Shown one piece after another: positions 3,247-32,400 of a DNA stretch of 32,400 nucleotides. Source of the stretch: a virus. The position numbers were made by a program, and so were the translations under genes. Location: positions 1-32,400 of the IMG/VR virus record IMGVR_UViG_3300032249_001491; one strand, 5' to 3'. Within the stretch, counting starts at the first letter, position 1. Each line of letters starts with the position of its first letter. The notes beneath the pieces were generated by a model. That model was not told the DNA's origin. It saw nothing but the letters and a program-made list of their open reading frames with translations, and did no database searches.

Positions 3247-5727
3247 TTAAACGTTATCTGTTTTAGTAGGATTCGTTCCAATATTAATTGTTGTTTTCGG
3301 TTTTTCTTTTTCCAACGATCTCATAGCAAGATTATTGATAAAGTTACCTAATCCCGCATTAATAAGATCAGCGGAAGCTTCTTGATTTTGTTGAAACTCT
3401 GTTAATGAATCTGTAAAGATACGTCTTCTACTTTCATTTATACTTGAACCTAATTGATCAGCTCTTGCACTTACACCTATTGCAAATTGTCTCTTTTGTA
3501 ATTGAACTCCTTCTGAAGCAATATTAGCGTCAATAAGCGCTTTGTTTTTATCAGTTGATAATGCACGTAGCTGAGAAGCATTTCCTCCACCACCAGAAGC
3601 TACAATATCATTCATTGTTTGAATTCTGTTAGTTTCGATCTGACTATTGATCTTACTCCATTCTGAAGCACTAAATCCTTCTTTAGCGTCAAGATCAGCT
3701 TTTGATTCATCATGCACAGCATCAAAATATCTCGTCATTAATTCAGGGCTTACCGAATCAACAGGACGTTCTTCATTAATGTTTCCCATGATTCCTATTG
3801 CAAGTTGTCCTAATGATGCAATACCTGCAGCTCCACCCATTGCATCAATAAACTTGCTTTTTGTAACTTTCTTATCTTGGTATGGTGATGGATTACCGGC
3901 TGTTGCAGGAGTTGTTACTGTTGCTGGAGTTGCTGCTGCGGCTTTTGCTTCATTTTCTGCATCAATCTTTTTAAGCCCTGCTAAATCAATTTCAGCTGCT
4001 TTTAATTGATCTTCTTCTGATGGAAGAACTGGTTTCAAAGAATCCATTGTAATAACTGGCTTCTTTGCTTTTGCTGCACCCGTTCCTGTTTTTTTAGGAA
4101 TTGTTGGTGCTACTTCTGGTACTGCAACTGCCGGATCAGTTAATGATACGGCTGAAATAGATGCTGTTTTTGGTGCTGTTACAGGCTTAGCTTTTGTTGC
4201 AATTTCTTTTTCAACTTTATCTAAAGTTGTTTTTGGAATAGGAATATTTCTAAGACTAGGATATTTTAAAAACTCAGTTTTAGATGCAGAATTTTTACTT
4301 CCAGACTCTAATAACTTTTGATCTTTAACATGACGATCATAATTATTTTTTACTGCTTTGATTTGAGCTGAACTAAAATTTTCTGGATTTCTAGAAACTG
4401 CATCAAATGCCATCTTTGCTTTATTATATTCAACTGAAAATGCTTTTGAATATATGTCAAAATCTTTATCTGTTTTATCAAAAGAATTTGCTTTTGGCGA
4501 AGCTGATATTTTTTTGCTTTTCGCAATATTATCTCTTAACGCATAATATTTTTTATTAAAATCATCTATTGGTTGAACAGAATTCATTTGTTCTAACTTT
4601 TTAAATGCTTCTTGTTTTTCAAAAATACTGTTGCTATTCATTGCTTTTTCAAACAACAAATCTCCTTTAGAAGGCTTTTTTAATTCAGTAACAGCAGCAT
4701 CAAGTTTTTCTTTGCTTTGATTTAATAAATGAGAATCTTTATTGCTATTTACATACTTTTCTGCTTTTGACGCAGATACTCCTTTTTTCACCATTAAAGC
4801 GATAACTGCTTTTTTCTGAACTTCAATCGATTTTTTATCGGTATCACTTTTTAATCCTTTTGAAAGCATTACTCCTGGATTCAATTGTTCATCAGCTTCT
4901 GGAGCTAACAGATCCAAGTTAATACCAGCAGCAGTCATTTTTTTAACTTCTTGTGGCGTAAAGTGATGTTCTCCATTTGAAAGCATTACATTAACCCCCG
5001 ATTTAGTAGCAGTTGATTTTTTAGTGTCTTCTCCTAAAACAGCTTTACGTAACACCTCTGCAACCTTTGCATTTTCAGATGGAACAATAAAACTTCCCTT
5101 GCTTAGTTTAGCTTTTACTTTATCATCTTTCGGTCCACCTGGACCAACAACTTTTCCACCTTTAGCTAAGTATTGTACAGCCATCCCACTTGCTACTCCT
5201 TTGCGTTTTTTTCTATTCATGATTTCGTCAATTCCATTAATAGAATTTAATGGATTTTCATCAAGTGAAAATGAATCTCCCGCAGCAAATTTAGAATCAC
5301 GTACAGAATTTCTTAATGATTGATCTAATTCAAAGTTTGCTTTGCGAGTTGCTTTTTTTTTCTTGTCTGATTCAATGACAGCTTCAGTGCCTCCAATAAG
5401 TAAACCAGCACCTGCACCAATAGCAATGCCTAATGCGCCACCTACAGCTCCAGCAGATGCTCCTTGTCCTGTTCTGGAAAGAATTGTGCTTCCAGCCTTA
5501 TCTTCCATTGTTGTAGGTTCCATCAATGATTGACCTAATCCTAATGCGGCTAATGTAGAACCCGCAATTGCATTTCCAGATGGACCATCGTCACCACTAT
5601 CACTATCACTTTCGCCTCCGGCCGCATCGCCAGTTCCGCCACCTCCAACATTTGCGGTTTCGACATCTTCTACAAATGGTCCGCCAGCAGTCATCTTTTT
5701 ATATTGAGGTGCTTTTTTCTTTATCAT
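3247..5727 (-). CDS. Putative internal virion protein with glycine zipper and LS-G-E/S-type motifs, 826 aa
   Basis: The ATG at 5727-5725 overlaps the stop of the 1422-aa gene by one base (TAATG), so translation is probably coupled. Residues 21-55 are a glycine/serine/aspartate-rich linker. Residues 88-114 form a glycine-rich hydrophobic segment (AGAVGGALGIAIGAGAGLLIG) that could insert into membrane. Two related short motifs follow at about 188-217 (KGGKVVGPGGPKDDKVKAKL, then SKGSFIVPSE) and 244-262 (GVNVMLSNGEHHFTPQEV). This GPG...LSxGE(F/H)xxP pattern recurs in tail and ejection proteins of many phages. The middle 280-600 is lysine-rich and probably coiled, with a proline/alanine/threonine-rich linker near 520-600. 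A second small hydrophobic segment lies near 630-645 (GGAAGIASLGQLAIGIMG). Context and membrane-active segments suggest a protein ejected with the genome; this is inferred. Confidence 0.75.
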   Translation of the reverse strand: MIKKKAPQYKKMTAGGPFVEDVETANVGGGGTGDAAGGESDSDSGDDGPSGNAIAGSTLAALGLGQSLMEPTTMEDKAGSTILSRTGQGASAGAVGGALGIAIGAGAGLLIGGTEAVIESDKKKKATRKANFELDQSLRNSVRDSKFAAGDSFSLDENPLNSINGIDEIMNRKKRKGVASGMAVQYLAKGGKVVGPGGPKDDKVKAKLSKGSFIVPSENAKVAEVLRKAVLGEDTKKSTATKSGVNVMLSNGEHHFTPQEVKKMTAAGINLDLLAPEADEQLNPGVMLSKGLKSDTDKKSIEVQKKAVIALMVKKGVSASKAEKYVNSNKDSHLLNQSKEKLDAAVTELKKPSKGDLLFEKAMNSNSIFEKQEAFKKLEQMNSVQPIDDFNKKYYALRDNIAKSKKISASPKANSFDKTDKDFDIYSKAFSVEYNKAKMAFDAVSRNPENFSSAQIKAVKNNYDRHVKDQKLLESGSKNSASKTEFLKYPSLRNIPIPKTTLDKVEKEIATKAKPVTAPKTASISAVSLTDPAVAVPEVAPTIPKKTGTGAAKAKKPVITMDSLKPVLPSEEDQLKAAEIDLAGLKKIDAENEAKAAAATPATVTTPATAGNPSPYQDKKVTKSKFIDAMGGAAGIASLGQLAIGIMGNINEERPVDSVSPELMTRYFDAVHDESKADLDAKEGFSASEWSKINSQIETNRIQTMNDIVASGGGGNASQLRALSTDKNKALIDANIASEGVQLQKRQFAIGVSARADQLGSSINESRRRIFTDSLTEFQQNQEASADLINAGLGNFINNLAMRSLEKEKPKTTINIGTNPTKTDNV

Positions 5728-18264: not shown

Positions 18265-18295
18265 CAAAGTTATTAAAAGATTGTTATTACTACAA
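18265..18295 (-). promoter_or_regulatory. Promoter for the 99-aa/scaffold/MCP transcript
   Basis: Minus-strand TTG (18295-18293), 20 bases, then TAACTTTG (18272-18265), a full match to the Bacteroidota TTG-N(19-21)-TAnnTTTG pattern. The -7 box begins at the base next to the stop codon of the fibre-like gene; the ATG follows 15 bases later. This would drive high expression of scaffold and capsid protein. Confidence 0.7.
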
Positions 18296-19652
18296 CTACG
18301 CCATCTCCACCTTTTCCTCCTGCCCCACTATTTCCCACTGAATCAACAGATGCTCCTCCTCCACCTCCCCCACTACCATAAACTCCAGCTCCGCCACTTC
18401 CGGCATTTCCCACTAAGCTAGATCCACCACTACCACCACCTGTTCCTTTGTATAAAGATGCAATAATATTTCCATTTCCGCCATTTGTTGCAATTGCTCC
18501 ACCGGTTCCTCCAACAACGCTATCTAAGCCAAACAATGGTGTTCCTCCTGCTGATCCGGCAGATGCTGCATTTAATGTTGTGATACCAGCTCCTGATGCT
18601 CCTCCAGAAGAGGCTCCTGTAGAACTACTTGGCGTTAATCCATTTCCGCCTGTTACTTGTGCTGCTGCTCCTCCATTTCCATTAAATCTTGTTCCGGTTC
18701 CAGCATTTCCTGCTGATCCCGTTGCATTTGTTCCTCCTTGCCCTGCTGTTCCGGCATTTGCTATTAAGTGAGAATCTGCTGCTGTTGTTCCTCCAAATGC
18801 AGATAATGTTCCAGCACTTCCATTATTTCCATTTGTTCCATTAAGCGAAACAGAATTGCCTCCATTTCCGCCAGTTCCAACCAATACGTTTTCCGTAGGA
18901 TTTAATACTGAAGCAGAAAACATTTGTTCACTATAACCTCCAGCTCCACCACCGCCACCACCACATCGAACTCCTCCAGCTGCACCTTTTCTTCCTGATC
19001 CTGCACCACCACCGGCACCTACAACAATGACAAAAACCATTTTTGCACCAGCAGGCTTATTCCATGTAGTAGAGCCTGGTGTTGTATAAAGATTAATAGT
19101 TGGAGATTGAATAACAGTATTTACACCAAGCAATACTTGCATGGCTGCGTAATTTGCAGCACTAATTAAACTCATTCCATTAGCACTAGCATCTAAACTT
19201 AACAATACTCTCATTGCAGCATAATCAACCGCTGTTATCAATGAAGCTCCATTAGCACTTGCATTTAAGCCTAATAAGACCTTCATTGCTGTATAATCAG
19301 CAGCACTAATTAAAGATTGTCCATTTGCTGATATTGTCAATCCTAACAATGTTCTCATTGCTACATAATCAGCAGCAGTTACTATTGATTGACCATCAAC
19401 AGTAGCTCCCGTAATCCAACCTGGCTTTGATGTAATGGCAGCCCAATCTACAGATCCTCCGCCAGAACTATCTGTGGATTCAACCATTTTTATAATGCGA
19501 CCATAACGATCAACAGTAATTTCTAATCCCTTATCAGTTCCACCCAACTTGAAAACTTGGGCAAAAAAAGCAGGAAGATCATATTGAACATTGCCATCGG
19601 CATCAATACTCTTCTTGATTGCTTGTGATTGATTAGTTTTACTGGTCGACAT
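18273..19652 (-). CDS. Fibre-like protein: 24-residue repeats plus glycine-rich domain, 459 aa
   Basis: The ATG at 19652-19650 overlaps the portal gene's end by 14 bases. Residues 1-80 form an N-terminal domain (VQYDLPAFFAQVFKLGGTDK; VDRYGRIIKMVESTD). Residues 85-180 are four tandem 24-residue repeats of consensus ANGxSLIxAxDYAAMxxLLG. From about 195 the chain enters a glycine-rich domain opening with TTWNKPAGAKMVFVIVVGAG and continuing to the end in G/S/A/N-rich loops, closing in VVVVITIF. This W-x-x-P-x-G-x-x-x-x-x-V-x-V-x-G-x-G-G-x-G domain is typical of phage fibres, often receptor-binding tips. Location between portal and capsid genes rather than among tail genes suggests a head fibre, as known for some crAss-like virions; that is inference. 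Confidence 0.8.
   Translation of the reverse strand: MSTSKTNQSQAIKKSIDADGNVQYDLPAFFAQVFKLGGTDKGLEITVDRYGRIIKMVESTDSSGGGSVDWAAITSKPGWITGATVDGQSIVTAADYVAMRTLLGLTISANGQSLISAADYTAMKVLLGLNASANGASLITAVDYAAMRVLLSLDASANGMSLISAANYAAMQVLLGVNTVIQSPTINLYTTPGSTTWNKPAGAKMVFVIVVGAGGGAGSGRKGAAGGVRCGGGGGGAGGYSEQMFSASVLNPTENVLVGTGGNGGNSVSLNGTNGNNGSAGTLSAFGGTTAADSHLIANAGTAGQGGTNATGSAGNAGTGTRFNGNGGAAAQVTGGNGLTPSSSTGASSGGASGAGITTLNAASAGSAGGTPLFGLDSVVGGTGGAIATNGGNGNIIASLYKGTGGGSGGSSLVGNAGSGGAGVYGSGGGGGGASVDSVGNSGAGGKGGDGVVVVITIF
19113..19400 (-). repeat. Four tandem 72-bp coding repeats
   Basis: In-frame repeats encoding residues 85-180 of the fibre-like protein. Each unit is 24 codons with the pattern NGxSLIxAxDYxAMxxLLGL. 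The invariant positions are G, S, A, Y, AM and LL. Divergence between units is mostly at silent and conservative sites. Confidence 0.9.
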
Positions 19653-26033: not shown

Positions 26034-26315
26034 TTATTTTTTTGCATTCATCCACATTTCTTTAAATTGATCCAACGTTCCATCAAATGCACCTCCAATC
26101 CCTCCAACGATAATTACTCCAACTGATTTTCCGTCTTTTGTTAACGTTGGTTTTACACAATTTGGAGCATCGTGATATTCTGCAGGAATACCTAAAACAC
26201 CACTTGCTTTTTCAACCATTTCATTTAAGAAATCAATTGTTTTTTGAGATACAGGTCCATCTGAAGAAATATGTAAAATACGAGGATCTAATTTTTTCTC
26301 CATAGCCATTTCCAT
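26034..26315 (-). CDS. Unknown small protein, 93 aa
   Basis: Overlaps the end of the 323-aa gene by 28 bases if translated from the first ATG (26315). Further Met codons at 26309 and 26303 give 91 or 89 residues (MEKKLDPRILHISSDG), and I cannot tell which is used. The fold looks alpha/beta: helix ISSDGPVSQKTIDFLNEMVE, then a hydrophobic strand SVGVIIVGGIGGAF, then a short C-terminal helix. I recognise no family. The overlap suggests translational coupling with the upstream gene. Confidence 0.6.
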   Translation of the reverse strand: MEMAMEKKLDPRILHISSDGPVSQKTIDFLNEMVEKASGVLGIPAEYHDAPNCVKPTLTKDGKSVGVIIVGGIGGAFDGTLDQFKEMWMNAKK

Positions 26316-28302: not shown

Positions 28303-28764
28303 ATGAACAACGTAAAGAAAGTAATCGCCGATGTAAACAACTTGCCTAAGCGCAAGTTTGAATCAGTAGTTATGCATATGATTGGTATGATTGTATGTAT
28401 GATGTTTATTGTATTCCCATGGTTTGCAGATAAACCAAGCTCAGTGAATATCGCTGTAGCGACTGTATTAGGCATCACTGGTGCATTATATCAGGCATCA
28501 AGGATATCTGATATCATCAGAGATTACAAATGGACTCAAGCTTGCAGTAAGCAAGCGGAAGATCATTACAAATCTCTTACGGATTTAAGAGAGTATAAAG
28601 ATGGATCTGTTTCATTTCGTACTCATGATGGATTTATCTTTGATATGGACAAAGATGGATATGCATTCAAAACAACATTAGGTGAAGTTGCAAGGAAGAA
28701 TATTTCCATAGATGAATGGAACGATGCTTGTGTAAAATACCTTCCAAATGAAGAAAAGTATTAA
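28303..28764 (+). CDS. Small membrane protein with two helices, 153 aa
   Basis: First rightward gene, starting at ATG 28303. Two hydrophobic helices lie at about residues 21-42 (SVVMHMIGMIVCMMFIVFPW) and 48-66 (VNIAVATVLGITGALYQAS), separated by a short DKPSS turn, giving a helical hairpin. The remaining 85 residues are soluble and charged, with an aspartate/glycine-rich stretch (DGFIFDMDKDGYAFKTTLGE). A basic N-terminus (KKVIADVNNLPKRK) suggests both ends face the cytoplasm. It is followed at once by a strong terminator, so it is probably expressed alone. I recognise no family; superinfection exclusion is one possibility for a small early membrane protein, without direct support. Confidence 0.7.
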   Translation: MNNVKKVIADVNNLPKRKFESVVMHMIGMIVCMMFIVFPWFADKPSSVNIAVATVLGITGALYQASRISDIIRDYKWTQACSKQAEDHYKSLTDLREYKDGSVSFRTHDGFIFDMDKDGYAFKTTLGEVARKNISIDEWNDACVKYLPNEEKY

Positions 28765-29558: not shown

Positions 29559-29570
29559 TACTAGTACCAA

Positions 29571-29596
29571 AAGACTCTCGAAAGAGAGTCTTTTTT
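29571..29596 (+). terminator. Terminator after the 225-aa gene
   Basis: A perfect 9-bp stem AAGACTCTC (29571-29579) / GAGAGTCTT (29584-29592) with GAAA tetraloop and six T. It starts 12 bases after the stop codon. Confidence 0.95.
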
Positions 29597-29663
29597 CTTA
29601 ACTAATTAAATGGCTATTCAACACGTATCCATACAACCCTCATGCGCCACACTAGCAAAGATC

Positions 29664-29690
29664 CTACTCCCTTCGGGGAGTAGTTTCTTT
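29664..29690 (+). terminator. UUCG-loop hairpin with T-rich tail
   Basis: CTACTCCC-TTCG-GGGAGTAG, a perfect 8-bp stem with the very stable C(UUCG)G tetraloop, followed by TTTCTTT. It could be a back-up terminator for the 225-aa gene or the end of a small RNA. Confidence 0.6.
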
Positions 29691-29714
29691 ACATCGCTGA
29701 GCTAAGCTCACTAG

Positions 29715-29727
29715 GGAGCAAAGCTCC
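29715..29727 (+). repeat. GGAGCAAAGCTCC hairpin, copy 1
   Basis: A 13-base perfect hairpin (stem GGAGC/GCTCC, loop AAA). An identical copy lies at 29762-29774, and the TGCTGACGCA element falls between them. Confidence 0.75.
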
Positions 29728-29747
29728 AGAGACTTCGTGTCATCCCC

Positions 29748-29757
29748 TGCTGACGCA
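29748..29757 (+). repeat. TGCTGACGCA element, copy 3
   Basis: Stem TGC/GCA around loop TGAC, with the same core as copies 1 and 2. It sits between two identical GGAGCAAAGCTCC hairpins. Confidence 0.65.
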
Positions 29758-29761
29758 CAAT

Positions 29762-29774
29762 GGAGCAAAGCTCC
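29762..29774 (+). repeat. GGAGCAAAGCTCC hairpin, copy 2
   Basis: Identical to 29715-29727, beginning 34 bases after copy 1 ends. Confidence 0.75.
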
Positions 29775-29826
29775 GCAAACAACACAATCAGTAATCATGG
29801 TAATGGTCACACAATACAATCAATAA

Positions 29827-29919
29827 AAAGCTTCTCTCCTTCAGCACACCGTAGATTAAAGTCCCAAATTCCCCTCTGTAGATATCCCATTTCCCTCTGG
29901 AGAAAGCTTCTCTCCTTCA
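29827..29919 (+). repeat. Direct repeat pair AAAGCTTCTCTCCTTCA
   Basis: Two identical 17-base copies at 29827-29843 and 29903-29919. The second is preceded by GAGAA and so forms a hairpin with TTCTC (29900-29912); the first lacks that arm. Confidence 0.8.
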
Positions 29920-29940
29920 CCGCACGGTTCCCAATTCCCT
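29862..29940. repeat. Three C-rich 12-14-base direct repeats
   Basis: TCCCAAATTCCCCTCTG (29862-29878), TCCCATTTCCCTCTG (29885-29899) and TTCCCAATTCCCT (29928-29940). On the minus strand they read AGGGAA(A/T)T-GGGA-like. Spacing is irregular, so they are iteron-like at best. Confidence 0.5.
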
Positions 29941-30017
29941 AAACTCCAATCCTAGGGCTGTTCGTAAATCAATGTAAATTTTTGTACCTAATTACCAATA
30001 GATTAAAAAATTCCCTA

Positions 30018-30048
30018 TTGATTATGTCAGAAATATCCTTTACCTTCG
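30018..30048 (+). promoter_or_regulatory. Possible promoter inside the hairpin region
   Basis: TTG (30018-30020), 20 bases, then TACCTTCG (30041-30048), one base off TAnnTTTG. It would start an RNA at about 30053 that runs into the last five hairpins, the second of which (30123-30143) is followed by T-rich sequence. Confidence 0.3.
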
Positions 30049-30417
30049 AAACGTCGAAAACGCAGATTCCGCTTCAGTCGTAGACTCGACCCTCCTGGTC
30101 TACTCTCCTACATTCGCTTTTCAGTAGATGCCTACTCATTTTTCGTCTTATTCGTTAACAGGGAAGATCCGTTATAGCACTCTATCTTCCCTAGCTTTGG
30201 GCAAGCTACCCATCTTTCCGCCTAGAATTTGTGAAAAACAAATTCCATTTCTTTTTAAAGAGGATTATGAAATGTGTATTGTAATAGGTGATAGTTGCTG
30301 GGTTAATTAAAGTTTATTATAGTATTTCCGCAGAAGGGGAAGTTGTGTTTGATTGGGTTATCTTCACAAAAAGGACAATTGAGTATATGTGGGAATTTTT
30401 TTTTATAAATAAGACAT

Positions 30418-30873
30418 ATGATAAATTTCAAAGAAGTTGTAGCCGACTATGATAATAGTAGGTTATGTGTAGTACCTTTTTATGATTATGATGCAGAGGG
30501 TAGGTTATTAGATGATATGATGTATTTCAATGAGCGTACTATGTTAAGGTATGAAACGTTGGAAGGTTACAATGTTGTAACGAAGGAAAGTGTTGGAGTT
30601 GAATGTGACGTAAAATTGGATGAGTATGTTCCGATTTGGGGGCTAATAAGTGATAAGTGGTTTGCTGGGTCATTGAAGTATGGATATATATCAGGGTTTG
30701 AAGACGGGCTGAATGGTTCGTTTTATACTCCAAGTAATTCATATGGTATATGTGTAAGGTTGCTGTGTTCGGCGATGGAGCAAGTGGGTTGCAATGCTGA
30801 GTTATTGACAAAATTAAGAAGTGGTGAATTAACGACTGTATACATTCAAATACTGGTAGAATATGAGCAATAA
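30418..30873 (+). CDS. Unknown protein, 151 aa, first gene of the right cluster
   Basis: Starts at ATG 30418 after an A/T-rich leader and overlaps the next gene by 11 bases, so the two are probably translated together. It is beta-rich, with many tyrosines, aspartates and glycines (SRLCVVPFYDYDAEGRLLDD; ISDKWFAGSLKYGYISGFED) and four cysteines, two of them near the C-terminus (GICVRLLCSAMEQVGCN). There is no membrane segment and no recognised motif. It is not related in sequence to the four paralogues that follow and could be a partner or an unrelated early protein. Confidence 0.7.
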   Translation: MINFKEVVADYDNSRLCVVPFYDYDAEGRLLDDMMYFNERTMLRYETLEGYNVVTKESVGVECDVKLDEYVPIWGLISDKWFAGSLKYGYISGFEDGLNGSFYTPSNSYGICVRLLCSAMEQVGCNAELLTKLRSGELTTVYIQILVEYEQ

Positions 30874-31288
30874 AGAACGTAGTTATTTAGAATTGGTATC
30901 ATCAGGGGAATTAGAGTACCTTGGAGATAGGTTAGTAGAGGATTTGAAACCGGTGGATTGGTTTGAAGAGTTGGGAGCAGAGAAGAACATCTTTGGTGTA
31001 TATTCTTTGAATGACAATGATAATCAGGATTGGGATCGATTGGAGAAGCTTAGTGGTGCATGGGTAACGTGTGCTGTAGGCAATCAGTGTAGTGTTATAC
31101 CTAGGAAGTTTGATGGAGAGCCTTTTGATTCGGAGTTAAGTGATCTTGGTGTAGAGTTTCATTTTGCTATTAGGAATAGCAGGCGATTGAAGGCGTTTGA
31201 AACGCTTTTAAAGATTGAGGAGCGCTCTGGTGTCCTTATACGTAGGTTTGAAGCTGAGCAAGCGGGTAAATCATCTAAAATCATATAA
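30863..31288 (+). CDS. WxTCAxGxxC-family paralogue A, 141 aa
   Basis: First of four tandem paralogues. After an N-terminal part (SYLELVSSGELEYLG; LKPVDWFEELGAE) comes the core: W67-V-T-C70-A-V-G-N-Q-C76-x-x-I-P-R81, then D-G-E-P at 84-87, then E-L-x-x-L-G-x-x-F at 91-99. A C-terminal helix has the L-x-K-I-E-E-R-S pattern near 115-122. The middle Cys found in the other copies is Val72 here, so copy A keeps only two of the three core cysteines. A small soluble alpha-helical protein is likely. I have the impression that similar W-x-T-C-A-x-G proteins of unknown function occur in bacteria, but I know no function. Confidence 0.75.
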   Translation: MSNKERSYLELVSSGELEYLGDRLVEDLKPVDWFEELGAEKNIFGVYSLNDNDNQDWDRLEKLSGAWVTCAVGNQCSVIPRKFDGEPFDSELSDLGVEFHFAIRNSRRLKAFETLLKIEERSGVLIRRFEAEQAGKSSKII

Positions 31289-31293
31289 AGACG

Positions 31294-31728
31294 ATGGACA
31301 AAAGCGTTAGTTACATAAAAGCATTAAAAGCCAATATGGATCCGGCGATGGATAGTATGTTAGCGGCATCGGTCCCAAATGGTTTTGATTGGTTTTATGA
31401 ATTGGGCGTTATAATGGTTAATGAAACTGAGATTCAGTTTACGTTTGACCATACTCCTGATTGGAAAAAGCTTCTTGACTATGCATGTGATTGGACAACG
31501 TGCGCATGTGGTAACATGTGCGCCGTCATTCCAAGGGAAAAGGATGGAGAACCAAAAGATCCACAATTAAAAATGCTGGGTAAAGCATTCGCGGTTTATG
31601 TAGTACACAGAGATGCAGAAAAAGCAGCTCGTACATTATATGCTATTGAAAAGAGATCTGCAGAGCTTATCAAAGCTATTGAAGATTGGGAAAAGATTAG
31701 CAAATCATTTGACAATATAGATTTTTAA
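31294..31728 (+). CDS. WxTCAxGxxC-family paralogue B, 144 aa
   Basis: Aligns with copy A without gaps through the core: FDWFYELG at 31-38, W57, W67-T-T-C70-A-C72-G-N-M-C76-A-V-I-P-R81, DGEP at 84-87, L-x-x-L-G, then an A-x-x-T-L-x-A-I-E-x-R-S-x-x-L-I helix. It has the full C-x-C-x(3)-C set. The N-terminal 30 residues differ from copy A and are alanine/methionine-rich (MDPAMDSMLAASVPNG). It starts five bases after copy A ends. Function unknown; the repeated cysteines suggest metal binding or a disulfide, which the sequence alone cannot show. Confidence 0.8.
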   Translation: MDKSVSYIKALKANMDPAMDSMLAASVPNGFDWFYELGVIMVNETEIQFTFDHTPDWKKLLDYACDWTTCACGNMCAVIPREKDGEPKDPQLKMLGKAFAVYVVHRDAEKAARTLYAIEKRSAELIKAIEDWEKISKSFDNIDF

Positions 31729-31750
31729 AAACATTTAAATTCACAAAATT

Positions 31751-32080
31751 ATGAATACTGAACAAAGTTATAATGAAGCAGCAGGCAATCCACCGTTTGA
31801 CTGGAAAGCTGCTATTGAATGTGCGGAAACAGATGATCAGTGGAAGAATTTAGCAATAATGGCTAAATCCTGGACTACATGTGCATGCGGAAACCAATGT
31901 GATGTGATACCAAGGTTTCCTGATGGTGAACCAGTAGATGAAGAATTAAGCATTTATGGTGTATCGTTTATGCGAGCTATTAAAATCAAGAATAAACGTA
32001 TTTCATTGCGTATATTGGAAACTATTGAAATTAGAAGCAACTATTTAATTACACAGATCAATAAACAAAAAAATGTCTGA
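31751..32080 (+). CDS. WxTCAxGxxC-family paralogue C, short form, 109 aa
   Basis: Shortest member: the region between the N-terminal SY-x-E-A and the core is about 26 residues shorter than in A and B. The core is intact: W41-T-T-C44-A-C46-G-N-Q-C50-D-V-I-P-R55, DGEP at 58-61, L-x-x-x-G-x-x-F, then I-L-E-T-I-E-I-R-S-x-x-L-I. The short form defines the minimal domain as roughly residues 28-105. It starts 22 bases after copy B ends, and its end overlaps copy D by eight bases. Confidence 0.8.
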   Translation: MNTEQSYNEAAGNPPFDWKAAIECAETDDQWKNLAIMAKSWTTCACGNQCDVIPRFPDGEPVDEELSIYGVSFMRAIKIKNKRISLRILETIEIRSNYLITQINKQKNV

Positions 32081-32400
32081 ACAAACTTATTTAGAAGCAG
32101 TTAAAGATGGCAGTATACGCTATTATGGAGTTGGTTATATTCCGGATCTTAAACCTATCAATTGGTTTGAGAAACTAGGAATTGAAGTAGATGAAGCTGG
32201 CGAATATTATCTAATTGAAGATTTTACTATATCAGATTGGAATCGTTTACATGATTACAGTGGTATTTGGGTTACTTGTGCATGCGGATCTATGTGTGCT
32301 ATCATTCCACGCGATTCTGTAGGCGAACCATTAGACTGGGAACTTAAAGAATTAGGTTTAGAGTTTAATACAGCTATTAGCAAATGTGATCGTGATCTAG
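32073..32400 (+). CDS. WxTCAxGxxC-family paralogue D, partial (cut by window edge)
   Basis: The ATG at 32073-32075 overlaps copy C's stop by eight bases. The frame is open to the window end (109 residues seen). The N-terminus (TYLEAVKDGSIRYYGV; DLKPINWFEKLG) is closest to copy A. The core W66-V-T-C69-A-C71-G-S-M-C75-A-I-I-P-R80 and G-E-P follow, with S-V replacing the usual residue before G-E-P. The similarity of A and D outside the core, with B and C between, suggests more than one duplication step. The array probably continues beyond the window. Confidence 0.8.
   Translation, partial: MSEQTYLEAVKDGSIRYYGVGYIPDLKPINWFEKLGIEVDEAGEYYLIEDFTISDWNRLHDYSGIWVTCACGSMCAIIPRDSVGEPLDWELKELGLEFNTAISKCDRDL

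Follow-up and report, generated by a model that had tools for sequence, protein, structure and literature searches.

Two previously described systems come closest to the locus reported here. A moron is an independently expressed cargo gene within a phage operon, as exemplified by the 'ant moron' of P22-like phages (PMC2629481), whilst in phage T6 anti-defence loci undergo segmental amplification driven by SegB, the copies being recent segmental duplicates (PMC13096335). A literature search for tandem paralogues in crAss-like phages yielded no relevant precedent. Here we describe four tandem genes, A–D, whose products belong to a previously undescribed family of small phage proteins that is found in many unrelated phages, and which varies amongst them in number and version.

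The stretch of DNA analysed (hereafter the window) is the whole of IMG/VR record IMGVR_UViG_3300032249_001491, a linear sequence of 32,400 bases that is probably a fragment. Its left 28 kb is filled by a leftward block of virion genes, specifying TerL, portal, capsid and a large virion protein, for the first three of which PHROGs profiles gave E-values of 5e-53, 2e-35 and 7e-16, respectively. Using tblastn, TerL and portal were found to be ∼19–24 % identical to records of crAss-like and Flavobacterium Fpv20-type phages, and the gene order TerL, portal, major head protein recurs in cr130_1, an annotated crAss-like record. Members of the Crassvirales are recognized by TerL, portal and major capsid proteins that are homologous and similarly ordered, and on this basis the window is a fragment of a distant crAss-like phage, of the kind that infects Bacteroidota. 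Nothing closely related to this phage came to light in the searches. Within the virion-gene block, the gene directly downstream of portal (18273–19652, − strand) encodes a 459-aa product resembling fibre or adhesin-type proteins, in which a 24-aa unit is repeated (a 72-bp tandem repeat of 2.2 copies at 19156–19316) and the C-terminal domain is glycine-rich (Pfam Gly_rich_2). Additionally, a 93-aa ORF set apart from the main TerL gene (26034–26315, − strand) matches positions 304–352 of the TerL PHROG profile (E-value 6.6e-5) and has no match in Pfam.

The rightward gene block of the window begins at 28303 and contains a stretch of ∼860 bases without a long ORF (29559–30417), which separates two rightward gene groups and harbours two direct repeats, of only 26 and 19 nt, as well as a terminator-like hairpin (29664–29683). 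A search of the whole window for tRNAs and Rfam families returned none. Immediately after this stretch lies a 151-aa gene (30418–30873, + strand) that overlaps A by 11 bases and is the probable first gene of an operon with A–D; it had no match in Pfam or PHROGs, and a pattern search of viral contigs revealed no relatives. The array itself follows on the same strand, and comprises A (30863–31288, 141 aa), B (31294–31728, 144 aa), C (31751–32080, 109 aa) and D (32073–32400), the last being an open ORF of at least 109 aa. As the right end of the record cuts inside D, copies further to the right cannot be counted.

A–D are homologues. All pairs gave Smith–Waterman scores of 119–258 against shuffle maxima of 41–53 (z 22–46), at a protein identity of only 39–49 %. 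The core motif was located in each copy on the + strand: WVTCAVGNQCSVIPR in A (31061–31105), WTTCACGNMCAVIPR in B (31492–31536), WTTCACGNQCDVIPR in C (31871–31915) and WVTCACGSMCAIIPR in D (32268–32312). Residues common to all four are (copy A numbering) W33, W57, L60, W67, T69, C70, A71, G73, C76, I79, P80, R81, G85, E86, P87, D89, L92, G96 and F99. The original prediction of four adjacent rightward paralogues is therefore upheld, and its spacings of 5, 22 and −8 bases (A–B, B–C and C–D, respectively) are exact. The invariant core that it described, W-x-T-C-A-x-G-x-x-C-x-x-I-P-R...G-E-P-x-D...L...G..F, is present throughout A–D, R-S-x-x-L-I occurs in A–C, and copy A has indeed lost its middle Cys, with CAV in place of CAC (CAVGNQC). 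Copy C had been taken for a short form, but 103–110 aa is the commonest length in the family, and it is A, B and D that are long forms, carrying an extra stretch of ∼30 aa near the N-terminus. Similarly, the proposed GEP signature holds within the array but not beyond it, as the E is found in only 11 of 50 members and the family constant is G-x-P-x-D.

In order to describe the wider family, we performed successive profile-guided scans of viral contigs, which converged on 41; with the window and one contig found via the leader sequence described below, the family is present in ∼43 IMG/VR contigs. These have very different backbones, and no neighbour gene is conserved across the whole family. 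A scan of 84,980 GTDB species, using one motif only, identified a single genome with a member, that of Pleomorphovibrio marinus, and the protein has the same sequence as the one encoded by L020, a 54-kb viral record that carries an integrase. Profile searches of cellular genomes covered Bacteroidota alone; amongst the 396 Bacteroidota genomes searched, the family was found only at the already known Pleomorphovibrio locus. With the members tried as queries, tblastn gave no match in ∼50,700 phage records or in ∼72,600 plasmid records. Pfam, PHROGs, NCBIfam and PADLOC returned nothing at a meaningful score, the hits in the latter three being scattered matches to one or two members (best E-value 0.0027). 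This lack of a family-library model, along with the multiple copies in 11 contigs and the empty slot detailed below, agrees with the suggestion that A–D are small accessory proteins outside known housekeeping families.

Alignment of 50 members showed that the constant features are the W in an N-terminal F-D-W-N motif, the W-x-T-C-A-C-G loop, R, G-x-P-x-D, and then L, G and F, followed by A...L..IE.R in the C-terminal helix. The family core pattern can be written as W-[VT]-T-C-A-C-G-N-x-C-x-x-I-P-R-x(3)-G-x-P-x-D, although the invariance of its W, T and first Cys is inflated, because the collection scans were seeded on that motif. Every member keeps the first Cys of the loop, whereas V replaces the second in 4 of 50 (including copy A) and eight lack the third; no His is conserved amongst the 50. 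A classical four-ligand zinc finger or ribbon was rejected on the grounds that the loop has at most three Cys, two of them variable, and that there is no conserved His, whilst zinc held between two chains is possible. Homing endonucleases of the HNH and GIY-YIG types were likewise rejected, as no Pfam model matched at a meaningful score and a conserved His is again missing.

Using the 50-member alignment, AlphaFold produced a model of copy C with a pLDDT of 90.9 and a pTM of 0.83, in which three short helices and the Cys loop are followed by a helical hairpin (residues 64–78 and 82–107). An earlier model of copy B (pLDDT 83) was weakest exactly at loop residues 72–75. Copy C is thus confidently predicted to have a helical fold with a Cys-containing loop and then a helical hairpin. 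Foldseek found nothing at E < 0.001 in BFVD (first model only) or PDB (both models), and no structural match was better than E 0.4; the four-helix phosphotransfer and cytochrome b562 proteins at the top of its results were regarded as generic helical bundles. A PDB profile match to 5h11 (E ∼0.01) was treated as chance, the alignment omitting the Cys pattern.

At least two copies of the family gene were present in 11 contigs: four in the window, three in L005, three in L063 (one a weak partial match), and two each in L006, L013, L015, L016, L022, L044, L058 and L062. In the tree, A and D are sisters (96/82) and are joined by B (99/94), a grouping that marks these three as local duplicates. Copy C falls outside A/B/D in the best tree, its highest identity being 47 %, to the copy in phage L032, and it may be of other origin. 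In an AU test the monophyly of A–D was not rejected (P = 0.465), such that a single origin of all four, with C diverging fast, is also possible. The repeated duplication originally proposed for the array is consequently supported for A, B and D, but not for the ungrouped C, and relatives stack copies from different phages. For instance, of the two tandem copies in L006, one shares 87.3 % identity with the only copy in L007 and the other 88.9 % with the only copy in L027; the two belong to different clades and are 67.9 % mutually identical, whilst the flanking genes are the same in L006, L007 and L027. Between L004 and L016, the gene before the slot is 96.6 % and the gene after it 98.3 % identical, as opposed to 71.4 % for the family gene within. 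Together, these cases demonstrate that whole-gene exchange and stacking occur.

In two groups of tailed phages the family genes are organized as cassettes, in which a leader resembling a promoter is followed by one, two or three family genes and then a putative intrinsic terminator, and in both the cassette is positioned inside the head-gene operon. The leader, TTGTTTATATTTGGATTCACTAAAATATAGAGCGA, is a conserved sequence of ∼35 bp that lies ahead of a family gene, or of the small ORF accompanying it, at 12 places, located before and after a MuF-like gene in one group (that of L004), and between other head genes in the other (that of L006). Within it, TATATTTG matches TAnnTTTG, which is the −7 element of Bacteroidota. 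As the leaders do not consistently come with a −33 element to match, we only infer that the leader acts as a promoter. Downstream of the final gene, a stem–loop and T-run was found in each of the 12 complete cassettes examined from the two groups, but in none of five other loci scanned likewise. Comparison of the close relatives L004, L013, L015, L016 and L132 shows that the gene is inserted into the operon.

Scanning viral contigs for the leader revealed two further cases, both on the reverse strand. In L132 (leader at 4461) the slot has neither a gene nor a terminator, and in L129 (leader at 278) an unrelated 70-aa ORF lies behind the leader. The contents of the slot thus vary from nothing, through other genes, to divergent family alleles. 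The empty slot suggests that the family gene is dispensable for phage growth, although L132 is a 4.6-kb contig and the gene could sit elsewhere in that phage. Companion ORFs of 80, 56 and ∼100 aa, with no Pfam match of note, share cassettes with the family gene; they were recorded in L007 (4026–4265), before the family gene in L025 and L026, in L015 (2765–2932) and in L016 (just after 2549). A further neighbour is a C-5 cytosine DNA methylase gene (Pfam E-value 1e-31) close downstream of the family member in L018 (10740–12305, + strand). The leader could serve as a means to collect other small cargo genes of the same phages. Within the window, no terminator-like site was found on the + strand between the copies, and promoter-like sites were not above chance. 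Since neither an empty relative nor a close one was found for the window, nor an own promoter or terminator between its copies, the case for cassettes is borrowed from the other phages, by analogy with which the array would behave as cassette cargo.

The arms-race signature expected for such an array was not borne out by the pattern of selection. In pairs more than 60 % identical, pairwise dN/dS was 0.11–0.49, so that selection on the family is purifying, and no positive selection was seen by this measure; pairs within A–D for the most part have saturated synonymous sites and are uninformative. With the core near-invariant, the diversity of the family is largely the result of exchange of whole alleles and not of fast amino-acid change. 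Dosage, also raised originally as a reason for the array, was neither borne out nor excluded.

An ordinary conserved function could also account for the purifying selection and the near-invariant core, and both would be expected of a protein linked to replication or metabolism, such as a regulator of DNA replication enzymes, that had been duplicated for dosage. Copies do lie near primase-, helicase-, polymerase- or RNR-like genes, as judged by sequence alone, in L057, L058, L028, L017 and L047. We nevertheless consider this unlikely, as the L004 and L006 groups have their family genes among head genes and the slot can be empty, whilst simple dosage agrees poorly with copies as dissimilar as A–D. 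Location amongst head genes might, in turn, indicate a virion or assembly protein, given that in the L004 and L013 group the copies sit between portal/MuF-like and protease/capsid-like genes. There, however, the flanking assembly genes are co-linear and 93–98 % identical in most pairs, whereas the family gene varies by exchange, doubling or absence; moreover, most other phages place it among small, apparently non-structural genes, making a structural role highly improbable.

A prophage gene for lysogenic conversion or superinfection exclusion, with its own promoter active in the lysogen, would account for leader–gene–terminator cassettes in a late operon, which are typical of morons, and for the bacterial-genome member that also exists as an integrase-carrying viral record. 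In disagreement with this is the observation that a tyrosine integrase was found in only 4 of 32 contigs searched and in none of the 130–211-kb ones, a count that the fragmentary nature of the records limits. With 28 of the 32 giving no integrase match, lysogenic conversion is unlikely as the common role, and we view this explanation as doubtful overall. That the leader recurs at three points of insertion in two backbones, and that there is an empty site, could alternatively reflect a selfish mobile gene, for example a small homing endonuclease whose cleavage drives its spread. The protein has neither the conserved His nor the HNH or GIY-YIG model match of such enzymes, and the leader also precedes unrelated cargo, meaning that the slot, rather than the protein, may drive exchange; as such, we give this possibility very little credence.

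We favour instead, with a probability of about 0.6, the explanation that the array is a moron-type cargo cluster whose protein acts within the infected cell on molecules of the host or of competing phages. Phages gain, lose, duplicate and swap the family genes as whole units, and arrays grow by local duplication (A, B and D) as well as by taking up alleles that other phages carry (probably the case for C). Inside the cell, the protein would bind molecules of the host, or of a competing phage, and serve as a factor in counter-defence, host takeover or superinfection. Its variable N-terminal part and different alleles may serve different partners, for which the Cys loop and hairpin would provide a common scaffold. 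Small early genes or morons that are optional usually serve in counter-defence or host takeover, and for this reason the most likely role would be an optional one, in host interaction or counter-defence within the cell. The family is made a good candidate for such a function by cassettes that show allele exchange and stacking, as well as an empty site and alternative cargo, amongst otherwise near-identical phages. Rather more tentatively, and with a fairly low likelihood, it might represent an unseen counter-defence system, in which tandem arrays of alleles and exchange at a fixed slot supply sets of inhibitors matched to different host targets. These proteins are without a model in the main protein-family libraries, and yet recur across environmental phage groups, often in multiple copies.

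With regard to known systems, crAss-like and Fpv20-type phages resemble the genome of the window, at an identity of only ∼19–24 %, but not its array, as tblastn found no family member in their isolate or reference records. The amplified loci of T6 are similar in being tandem small phage genes with the potential to increase dosage or variety in the face of host defence. They differ in that their copies are recent duplicates, whereas A–D share only 39–49 % identity, and in that no homing endonuclease was identified beside the array. Compared with the 'ant moron' of P22-like phages, the proteins belong to another family and copies of one family accumulate in tandem; unlike a moron, the array in the window has no visible cassette boundaries. 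It is in the relatives that the likeness to morons is seen, where the family genes are inserted in a late operon, vary between close phages, are bordered by a promoter-like leader and a terminator-like stem–loop, and have an empty version.
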